From assembly GCA_009840355.1 (NCBI GenBank), contig VXNZ01000011.1, positions 1 through 64,000 on the forward strand: a DNA stretch of 64,000 nucleotides, read 5' to 3'. The stretch comes from Chloroflexota bacterium (GTDB lineage: Bacteria > Chloroflexota > Dehalococcoidia > Lucifugimonadales > JADFKI01). Positions 11,587 to 16,687 of the stretch are shown here, piece by piece; position 1 is the stretch's first letter; every line of letters begins with the position of its first letter. The notes under the pieces are model-generated. The model made no database searches, was not told the origin of the DNA, and worked only from the letters and a program-made list of their open reading frames with translations. Both the position numbers and the translations under genes were made by a program.

Positions 11587-12411
11587 ATGACCGAATTATC
11601 GAGCAAAATCGCGCTGGTTACGGGTGCCAGCCGTGGCGTCGGACGCGGTATCGCGCACGAGCTGGGCATTGCGGGCGCGACGGTGTATGTAACCGGGCGC
11701 AGCGTAAGCAGAAGCGCGACAACGGAATCGCTGGGCGGCGATGTGAACGGCGCGGCTGCGCTGGTAACGCAGGCTGGCGGCACAGGAATCGCCGTACGCT
11801 GCGACCACACGAATGACGCCGATGTGCGCGACCTGTTCGAGCAGATTGCGCGCGAACAGGGCAGGCTGGACATACTGGTGAACAATGTCTGGGGCGGCTA
11901 CGAGCGCATCGACGATGTGGATTTCGTGGCGCCGTTCTGGGAGCAGCCGCTTTGGCGCTGGGGCTTGATGTTCAACGCCGGCGTGCGCGCGCACTACACG
12001 GCGAGCCGTCTCGCCGTGCCGCTGATGGTACCGCAGAGCTGCGGACTCATCGTGAACATATCGTCGGGCGACGAGGACAAGTATCGCGGGCAGGTGATGT
12101 ACGACATCGCCAAGGCAGCCGTGGACCGCATGGCGTTCGCGATGGCGCAGGAATTGCGGCAGCACGGGATCGTCGCGCTCGCGCTATATCCGGGCTTGAC
12201 GCGCACCGAGCGCGTGGAGCGGTTCGCGTCCGCCGACGAGCTGGCAATCGCGGAATCGCCGCGATACGCGGGGCGCGCCGTCGTCACCCTTGCAACGGAT
12301 CCCGATGTGATGCGACGAAGCGGCAACGCCTACAAGACCGGCGAACTCGCGCGAGAATACGGCTTTACCGACATCGACGGCAGGCAGCCACCGCCATTCA
12401 CCTTTGGCTAA
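11587..12411 (+). CDS. short-chain dehydrogenase/reductase, DHRS1-like
   Basis: The 274-residue NAD(P)-binding protein begins with the Rossmann motif TGASRGVGRGIA (residues 12-23). It has NNVWGG in place of the usual NNAG, and the active site is NISSGDEDKYRGQVMYDIAK, with Ser, Tyr and Lys in the normal order. The NNVWGGYE and FWEQPLWRW segments recall the DHRS1 subgroup, whose members reduce steroids and xenobiotics. An arginine after the first strand (VTGRS) suggests NADPH. It stands alone on the plus strand, divergent from the monooxygenase, with a 98-bp gap. The substrate is unknown. Confidence 0.85.
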   Translation: MTELSSKIALVTGASRGVGRGIAHELGIAGATVYVTGRSVSRSATTESLGGDVNGAAALVTQAGGTGIAVRCDHTNDADVRDLFEQIAREQGRLDILVNNVWGGYERIDDVDFVAPFWEQPLWRWGLMFNAGVRAHYTASRLAVPLMVPQSCGLIVNISSGDEDKYRGQVMYDIAKAAVDRMAFAMAQELRQHGIVALALYPGLTRTERVERFASADELAIAESPRYAGRAVVTLATDPDVMRRSGNAYKTGELAREYGFTDIDGRQPPPFTFG

Positions 12412-12461
12412 GCGTCTGTTAAAGTATAAGTGCGCAAGGTTGCAGATTTGATACACATATA

Positions 12462-13951: not shown

Positions 13952-14956
13952 ATGCTTGCTGGCAAACTTCCGATGGAGTTGCTTTCGCGGCTGCTGTCTG
14001 ACATTGATGTGCGCGACCCGCGTGTGGTGTTGGGCGCGCGCGCCGGGGAAGATGCCGCCCTCATCGACATGGGCGACCGGTATCTCGTCGCCAAGACCGA
14101 TCCCATCACATTTGCCACCGATCTTATCGGCTGGTATTTGGTGCAGGTCAACGCGAACGATTTGGCGGCGATGGGCGCGACTCCGCGCTGGCTGATGGCG
14201 ACGCTGCTGCTGCCCGAAGGCACGACCGAAACACAGACCGCTACGATTTTCTCGCAACTGATTGAGGCGTGCGACTCCCTTGGCATCACGCTCATCGGCG
14301 GACACACCGAGATAACCTACGGCTTGCCGCGTCCCGTGATGATGGGCGCGATGCTCGGCGAGGTGGACAAGGACAAGGTCGTGCTGACATCCGGCGCGCA
14401 GGTCGGCGACAGCATCGTGCTGACGCAAGGCGTGGCGATAGAAGGTGCATCGATTCTGGCGCGCGAAGCAGAGGACGCGCTGGCGGCGAAAGGTGTGCCG
14501 CAGGCGGTCATCGAGCGCGCGAAGGCGTTCTTGTTCACTCCGGGCATAAGCGTGGCGCGTGCTGCGGCAATAGCCTGCGACACGGCAACCGTACATGCCA
14601 TGCACGACCCGACAGAAGGCGGAATAGCCTCCGCGCTGCTGGAACTCGCGACGGCGGCAGACGTAGGTCTGACCATTGACGCGGCGCGTATCCCGATACT
14701 GCCCGAGTGCCGCGCAATCTGCGACGCGCTCTCGCTCGACCCGCTCGGGCTAATCGCATCCGGCGCGCTGCTCGCAACTATGTCGCCACCGGACGCCGAA
14801 CGCGTCATCGATGCGCTAGGCAGCGAAGGCATCCCTGCCAGCATAATCGGCAGCATCACCCCGCAGTCCGCCGGCTTGCGCATCACCACAAACGGCGAAG
14901 AGCGCCCGCTTCCCACCTTCTCCCGCGACGAATTGGCGCGGTTCTTTGCGGACTAG
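13952..14956 (+). CDS. AIR synthase-related protein (HypE-like)
   Basis: The 334-residue protein has the PurM/HypE/SelD fold. It shows GEDAALIDMGDRYLVAKTDP at the N-terminal half, VQVNANDLAAMGATPRWL with the conserved N-D-x-A-A-M-G motif, and LIGGHTEITYGLPRPVMMGA. In the C-terminal half it has VHAMHDPTEGGIASALLELA. It lacks the C-terminal cysteine that HypE carbamoylates and the glycine-rich Cys/Sec loop of SelD. It therefore probably binds ATP and forms a phosphorylated or dehydrated product in an unknown pathway. ATG 13952 has no strong ribosome site; ATG 13973 is an alternative. No hydrogenase gene is near. Confidence 0.75.
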   Translation: MLAGKLPMELLSRLLSDIDVRDPRVVLGARAGEDAALIDMGDRYLVAKTDPITFATDLIGWYLVQVNANDLAAMGATPRWLMATLLLPEGTTETQTATIFSQLIEACDSLGITLIGGHTEITYGLPRPVMMGAMLGEVDKDKVVLTSGAQVGDSIVLTQGVAIEGASILAREAEDALAAKGVPQAVIERAKAFLFTPGISVARAAAIACDTATVHAMHDPTEGGIASALLELATAADVGLTIDAARIPILPECRAICDALSLDPLGLIASGALLATMSPPDAERVIDALGSEGIPASIIGSITPQSAGLRITTNGEERPLPTFSRDELARFFAD

Positions 14957-15244: not shown

Positions 15245-16687
15245 ATGATACGGAGTATTAGCACTATGCCCTTTTCCATTGGCAGGGTGGCGGCTGGCGT
15301 GCTCGTTGTTATGATGCTTGCGGTGGTTCTTGCCGCGTGCTCGCAGCAGGCAGAGCCGCAAACTACGGCTGCTACGGCGGACACGCCGGCGCCCACAGCA
15401 GCAGCACCGGCGGCACCCACCGCAGCGCCAACATCTGCACCCGCGCCCACCGCTACGCCTGAACCCGCACCCACGGCAACCGCGGAGCCACGGGCATCGG
15501 CGACTCAACCTGCGGCAACAGCCGCGCCTGCGTCAACCGCTACGGAGGCGCCCGTGACTGCGCCGGTTGCAACGGCGGCGTCAAGCGGATCGGGCGCGAA
15601 CCACTTTGTCCTTGGAGAAGGCACTGTTGCACGGTACATGATCGATGAAGAGCTGGCGGGCAGAGGGTTCTTCACCGCCGTCGGTGAGACTACCGAGGTG
15701 GTGGGGCGCGTCGTGTTCGATGACGATGGCGGTGTTGTGGCGGAAGGCAGCGCTATCGTTATGCAAGCCGCGTCGCTGACGACTGACAGCGACCGCCGCG
15801 ATGGCTATGTCCGCGAGCGAACGCTGCTGACATCAGAATATCCCGCGATTGTGTTCAGCCCCACTTCGGCTGAAGGGCTGCCATCACCGCTCAGCGATGC
15901 AAGCGGCACAGTCGAGTTCACCATCACCGGCGACCTGACCGTTCGCAACCAGACTCGCGAGGTAACCTGGGATGTCGTCGCGGAGTTCGGCGATACGATA
16001 AGCGGACTGGCGAGCGTGGTGGTTACCTTCGAGCAGTTCGGTATAGACAAGCCTAGCGTCGCGGTCGTGCTCAGCGTGGAAGATAGTTTCCAGCTAGAGT
16101 TAGAGTTCGTGGGAGCGTTCGAGGAAGCGGGCGCGATAAATGTCGATAGCGCGGACAATACGGCGTACGCGCAGTTTCTAGGCGATGAGAACGCGCCGGT
16201 AACGGTCATCGAGTTCTCAGACTTCCAGTGACCATACTGCCGCACATTCGCCCTCGGGCCAGGGCGACAGATTATCGAAGACTATGTGGCATCGGGCGAT
16301 GTGCGCTTCGTGTATCGCCACTTCATCGTCATCGGTCAGGAATCCATCGTCGCCGCGATGGGCACGGAGTGCGCTGCCGAGCAGGACATGTTCTGGGAAT
16401 ATCACGACGCCATATTCGACAACTGGGACGACGCGCGACAGAACAGGTTCGGTCTAGCTTGGCTGCAATCCACCGCCGAAAGCCTGGAACTGGACTTGCC
16501 GACATTTATGGAGTGCCTCGATAGCGGCCGCCACTTCGAGCGCATCCGCGCAAGCCAGATCGACGGCATGGGACGCGGCATCAGAGGCACGCCTTCCGTG
16601 TTCGTCAACGGTGAGCGCGTGGGCGGACCGGACTACGAAGTCTATCGCGCCGCCATCGAAGCCGCGCTTGAGGAAAGTAATCAGTAG
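15245..16687 (+). CDS. probable selenoprotein: lipoprotein with YceI-like and DsbA-like (UPYC) domains
   Basis: The frame runs 480 codons if the TGA at 16229-16231 is read as selenocysteine (U329). Order of parts: a lipoprotein signal with lipobox LAAC (C32); an Ala/Thr/Pro-rich spacer to about residue 115; a YceI-like beta domain (~118-298) with FVLGEGTVARYMIDEEL and the DLTVRNQTREVTWDV signature; then a DsbA/thioredoxin-4 domain (~305-480). That domain has VTVIEFSDFQ-U-PYC-RTF, FWEYHDAIFDNW and the cis-proline loop GTPSVFVNG (P450). The TGA replaces exactly the first Cys of the CPYC active site, while the rest of the fold continues in the same frame without another stop. ATG 15245 is the long start; ATG 15266 has GGAG 10 nt upstream and may be the real one. 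Expected role: outer-face thiol-disulfide or peroxide chemistry, tethered to the membrane. A nonsense mutation or an assembly error is the alternative. Confidence 0.85.
16229..16267 (+). promoter_or_regulatory. UGA codon with candidate bacterial SECIS hairpin
   Basis: Sixteen nt after the TGA, TCGCCCT (16248-16254) pairs perfectly with AGGGCGA (16261-16267) around the 6-nt loop CGGGCC. A short stem at this distance with G near the start of the apical loop fits the bacterial SECIS pattern that SelB recognises. The hairpin lies inside the coding region, as bacterial SECIS elements must. The pairing is seen directly; SelB recognition is inference. Confidence 0.6.

Follow-up and report, generated by a model that had tools for sequence, protein, structure and literature searches.

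Selenoproteins with a UxxC active site of the DsbA-like and DsbG-like types are listed in catalogues from 2006, 2022 and 2026 (PMC1794560; PMC9312934; PMC13188914). For the nearest group, NCBIfam has the model NF041057, the Rcas_1661 family of thioredoxin-like (seleno)lipoproteins, referred to as DsbG-like (PMC13188914; PMC9312934). Other relevant systems are BdbD of Bacillus subtilis (3eu3) with the VKOR-linked DsbA proteins, and the YceI lipocalins, for which structures of TT1927b (1wub), BcnA (5ixh) and E. coli YceI (1y0g) are available. Structures of the YceI family contain isoprenoids or ubiquinone-8, and BcnA, whose partner is a cytochrome b561, shields membranes from lipid peroxyl radicals (PMC9113575).

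We compared these systems to a gene in a 64,000-nucleotide stretch of Chloroflexota DNA (the window; contig VXNZ01000011.1, assembly GCA_009840355.1). The protein shares its redox domain and the UxxC motif with NF041057 (6.4e-46 over residues 300-473), but it scores below the curated cut-off of that family (156.9 versus 190 bits; 140 bits in the genome search), and the 247-position model is without YceI, whereas the protein here has a full YceI domain as its N-terminal half. With the DsbA-like selenoproteins (PF01323, UxxC; PMC1794560; PMC13188914) it has in common a DSBA domain that scores over the cut-off and Sec in the first active-site position, while the YceI fusion and the lipoprotein anchor are features of the protein here. 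BdbD, the closest solved sequence, and the VKOR-linked DsbA proteins have the same fold, and a paralogue of the gene adjoins VKOR; the protein here differs in having Sec for the first Cys and an extra YceI domain, and its gene is not located beside VKOR. The YceI domain is shared with the lipocalins by both Pfam and fold, but the lipocalins compared are single-domain proteins, whereas YceI is here fused to a selenocysteine oxidoreductase. An earlier, sequence-only reading of the window had announced a probable new selenoprotein, a DsbA-like lipoprotein with UPYC as its active site. The selenoprotein is fully supported, as the refuting conditions named in that reading for the Sec machinery and for the homologues were tested and did not overturn it; its novelty holds only in part, since UxxC DsbA- and DsbG-like families are catalogued and NF041057 exists. 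The selenoprotein and enzyme class is already known, and the new part is the YceI fusion with its likely membrane-lipid context. No description of a fusion of YceI to a selenocysteine-containing DsbA domain was found in the literature searched, where YceI and selenocysteine occurred together in one unrelated paper, and neither the combination of VKOR, selenocysteine and DsbA nor that of SAR202 and selenoproteins was encountered there.

The reading frame from 15245 to 16687 on the forward strand (480 codons) contains a single interruption, TGA 16229-16231, at which the open reading frame 15245-16231 terminates. If this TGA is read as U, the frame yields an unbroken protein of 480 amino acids that ends at TAG 16685-16687. 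The flanking residues, VTVIEFSDFQ-U-PYCRTF, place the TGA exactly where a DsbA-type CPYC site has its first residue, and FWEYHDAIF and GTPSVFVNG follow farther on. The sequence-only reading had drawn attention to the common frame on both sides of the TGA and to these downstream fold marks; the latter are indeed present in the read-through protein, and the Pfam match to PF13462 spans the TGA without a break (residues 310-472). The start methionine of the orthologues aligns with window position 15266, which is therefore a likelier start than the ATG at 15245. The lipobox LAAC is followed by a long stretch rich in Ala, Pro and Thr (Table 1). The order of genes for a HAD protein, an AIRS protein, the selenoprotein and a cupin is kept across the genus as far as the contigs reach. 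It had also been predicted that a gene caller would split the protein into two pieces and lose the active site, which agrees with our analysis, but annotation would in addition present the 5' open reading frame as a whole YceI lipoprotein. What gene callers would report is thus a credible YceI lipoprotein plus a DsbA fragment that lacks the active site.

Table 1. Features of the YceI-DsbA selenoprotein gene, in window coordinates.
Feature	Position	Strand	Basis
Selenoprotein gene: lipoprotein signal, low-complexity linker, YceI domain, UxxC DsbA domain	15266..16687	+	Frame open from ATG 15245; orthologues favour ATG 15266
Signal peptide with lipobox LAA-C32 (codon 15338-15340)	15266..15340	+	Lipobox read by eye; orthologue alignment
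YceI (isoprenoid-binding lipocalin) domain, residues 143-288	15671..16108	+	PF04264 1.4e-17; predicted fold matches 1wub, 1y0g, 5ixh
DsbA / Thioredoxin_4 domain, residues 310-472	16172..16660	+	PF13462 1.7e-28, PF01323 6.4e-14; fold match to BdbD 3eu3
UGA, Sec329, first UPYC residue	16229..16231	+	Sequence; homologue alignment
Cys332, resolving Cys of UPYC	16238..16240	+	Sequence; orthologue alignment
bSECIS hairpin: arms 16248-16254 / 16261-16267, loop CGGGCC 16255-16260	16248..16267	+	UGA-to-loop 23 nt; covariation, local folding
Conserved Thr-Pro of the cis-Pro loop (T449-P450)	16589..16594	+	Orthologue alignment

The TGA is located at the identical codon in all five same-genus genomes that carry the two-domain gene, which are independent assemblies; the counterparts are from SAR202 bin90, Chloroflexi SB0664_bin_29, Chloroflexi TM_07 and an uncultured Dehalococcoidia, the SAR202 cluster being part of the Dehalococcoidia in the Chloroflexota. 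Among 92 distinct related domains, a sample picked by similarity and not a census, this column contains Cys in 71 and TGA in 21, with about six parsimony changes between the two on a weakly supported tree. In comparison to the orthologues, dN/dS is 0.11-0.18 in the YceI domain and 0.14-0.35 in the codons 3' of the TGA, which are under purifying selection. A lone TGA in one draft MAG could in principle be an error, and the gene would then be a Cys-type gene with a sequencing error or a nonsense mutation, the latter a pseudogene. However, the same TGA in five assemblies, the selection acting downstream of it, the covarying SECIS hairpin and the full Sec machinery all argue against this explanation, which we consider extremely improbable; the shared TGA, the dN/dS values and the kept gene order exclude it for practical purposes. 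The sequence-only reading had likewise regarded a random nonsense mutation as unlikely, and a check of the close homologues for frameshifts and other lesions, which would have spoken against a selenoprotein, did not overturn this view.

Bacterial SECIS elements were modelled with a loop of 3-9 nt, a stem of 4-16 bp, a G at loop position 1 or 2, a distance of 16-37 nt from the UGA to the loop and a minimum free energy of at most -7.5 (PMC13188914). A hairpin that begins 16 nt 3' of the UGA lies within all of these limits, with a 7-bp stem, a 6-nt loop with G at position 2, a distance of 23 nt and an energy of -11.1 kcal/mol. In an alignment of 18 UGA homologues, 85.7% of the cells pair and two-sided changes are seen in five of the seven pairs, while hairpin versions that were slid along the alignment as a control pair at 32-45%. 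Not one of 500 shuffles reached any of the five observed pairing measures, but relatedness inflates such tests, and the weight lies on the control with slid hairpins and on the changes that affect both sides of a pair in separate lineages. The latter include a change from C-G to U-A in loci L061 and L062 and changes of the whole stem in L066 and L067; in the more distant L063-L065, hairpins are found at the same place in another register. Synonymous change is also suppressed, as 70 codon pairs encode the same residue in the hairpin codons of the five orthologues and just 4 of them differ, compared to 36% upstream and 34% downstream, and only 0.5-1% of synonymous recodings with the peptide fixed and local codon use form such a hairpin. 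The Cys homologues L050, L051 and L063 are without the hairpin, and a fourth, L074, can form a different one at the same place. A covariance model built from the hairpin has two matches genome-wide, the selenoprotein gene and its paralogue. Folded as a whole, the 65-nt region has an energy within the ordinary range of dinucleotide shuffles (z -0.20); whole-region folding is thus uninformative, and support for the SECIS element rests on the local hairpin, the covariation and the synonymous constraint. An Rfam scan of the region returned nothing near the gathering score.

The genome (3.28 Mb, 97% complete) contains the Sec machinery that the sequence-only reading led one to expect. A tRNA-Sec was identified with 66.4 bits, over the Rfam cut-off, and also by ARAGORN, with anticodon tca, and profile searches of the genome recovered selA (531 bits), a full-length selB (342 bits) and, on contig 14, selD (389.5 bits), all over their cut-offs. 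The selD gene (L020) is a selenoprotein gene too, with an in-frame TGA in SCAGUASK, a form in which SelD commonly occurs as a selenoprotein. The search for selA covered the genome of the window and 20 relatives, and each of these 21 had a gene over the cut-off; Sec use is therefore a lineage trait. From the codon, the hairpin, the factors and the conservation we infer, with near certainty, that the UGA at 16229-16231 is decoded as Sec. SelA and SelD would make Sec-tRNA-Sec, which SelB, bound to the SECIS hairpin, would deliver to the UGA. A well-supported selenoprotein is thereby added for the SAR202/Dehalococcoidia lineage.

Both domains score far above their Pfam gathering scores (PF04264, 64.9 versus 23.7 bits; PF13462, 100.3 versus 23.2; PF01323, 52.6 versus 25.6), with Sec in the first active-site position. 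An AlphaFold model (mean pLDDT 80.4, pTM 0.58, linker pLDDT under 50) supports both folds, including the YceI beta-barrel, and the nearest solved structures are BdbD for the redox domain and TT1927b and BcnA for YceI; as for the placement of the two domains relative to each other, the model gives nothing reliable and no interdomain contact can be claimed. The lipobox, the Pfam matches and the model together indicate that the product would be a lipid-anchored, extracytoplasmic two-domain protein. The DsbA-like lipoprotein of the sequence-only reading is thus retained, while the N-terminal YceI half, the SECIS element and the VKOR-linked paralogue had escaped it. A pattern-seeded search, of whose 502 candidates the best 80 were kept, found open reading frames with both YceI and DsbA domains in no other genus. 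The N-terminal half shares 53-59% identity with stand-alone YceI lipoproteins of another family in the order, and the fetched flanks of stand-alone YceI genes from other families contained no DsbA gene of the same type.

Given the ligands of YceI structures and the protection that BcnA gives against lipid peroxidation, it is plausible that the N-terminal half has a role that involves membrane lipids or quinones. By analogy, the YceI domain probably binds an isoprenoid or quinone-like lipid and keeps the DsbA domain at the surface of the membrane. Alternatively to thiol oxidation, the selenoprotein might act as a lipid or hydroperoxide peroxidase or as a recycling partner, with YceI presenting an oxidised quinone or lipid peroxide for reduction by the Sec-Cys pair. 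The binding of ubiquinone-8 and isoprenoids by YceI lipocalins, the action of BcnA and cytochrome b561 against lipid peroxyl radicals (PMC9113575), the frequency of Sec in peroxidases and the presence of both domains on a single chain would suit such a role. We nevertheless consider it unlikely, as the redox domain is of the DsbA/BdbD type with a cis-Pro loop and not a peroxiredoxin or GPX, the paralogues pair with VKOR, and the model allows no claim of contact between the domains. We are highly confident that the C-terminal domain is a thiol oxidoreductase.

A second gene of the same domain family, with the same TGA and the same type of SECIS element, was identified on contig 26 (20019-20630; locus L055, 4960-6095). 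The genome has a single VKOR match, and the 3' end of the second gene overlaps the start codon of this VKOR gene (ATGA). In each of the four genomes of the genus that were read (L055-L058), the short form is followed by VKOR, which was also found at four further Sec loci (L061, L062, L065, L098) and three Cys loci (L050, L051, L074). The gene pair of seleno-DsbA and VKOR thus recurs across related genomes, and this adjacency suggests that the domain family takes part in VKOR-coupled thiol oxidation. Since no VKOR adjoins the two-domain gene, its partner and the direction of electron flow are extrapolated from the paralogue, and we see about an even chance that it is a VKOR-coupled oxidase and not a reductase or isomerase. 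A disulfide reductase or isomerase similar to DsbG or DsbC, kept reduced by another system, would be in line with the weak match to the DsbG model, with the term DsbG-like for the nearest family in the review literature (PMC13188914) and with the distance of the two-domain gene from VKOR; yet the oxidase BdbD is the best match by sequence and fold, Pfam finds no DsbG dimerisation domain, and the paralogues adjoin VKOR, so that we hold this alternative to be possible but doubtful. In one same-genus genome (L059 4312-5565), a UxxC domain near-identical to the one that this genome has beside VKOR follows another N-terminal region, of lipoprotein or coiled-coil-like type, with the TGA retained, and from this locus the Sec domain seems to have been shuffled between carriers.

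Taken as a whole, the best explanation, which we regard as very probable, is that the UGA is decoded as Sec and that the product is a lipid-anchored YceI-seleno-DsbA protein with likely VKOR-linked thiol chemistry. In the DsbA/BdbD-type domain, Sec329 would attack and Cys332 resolve, with the cis-Pro loop present, and the chemistry would most likely be disulfide exchange or the oxidation of extracytoplasmic thiols. Electrons would pass to the quinone pool via VKOR, as the operon association suggests for the VKOR-adjacent paralogue. Together with the seleno-DsbA/VKOR pairs, the protein suggests that these bacteria rely on selenium for their extracytoplasmic disulfide chemistry. The position of the UGA just past a complete YceI lipoprotein also brings to mind a selenium-dependent switch, in which termination at low selenium would give a stand-alone YceI lipoprotein, similar to those that related families have, and selenium would give the YceI-seleno-DsbA protein from the same mRNA. 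In the full-length form, thiol redox chemistry at the membrane would then be coupled to a lipocalin that binds lipid or quinone, but we regard such a switch as improbable.

Directly upstream of the selenoprotein gene, and conserved in the genus, is a gene of the AIR-synthase family (ThiL/HypE/SelD-like; 13952-14956). As a candidate for a local selD it was rejected, with 85 bits versus a cut-off of 125 and the true selD on contig 14, and it also scores under the thiL and hypE cut-offs. Farther upstream, ARAGORN calls a 95-nt tRNA-Gly on the minus strand (12322-12416); the call covers the 3' end of a gene for a short-chain dehydrogenase and is probably a false positive.
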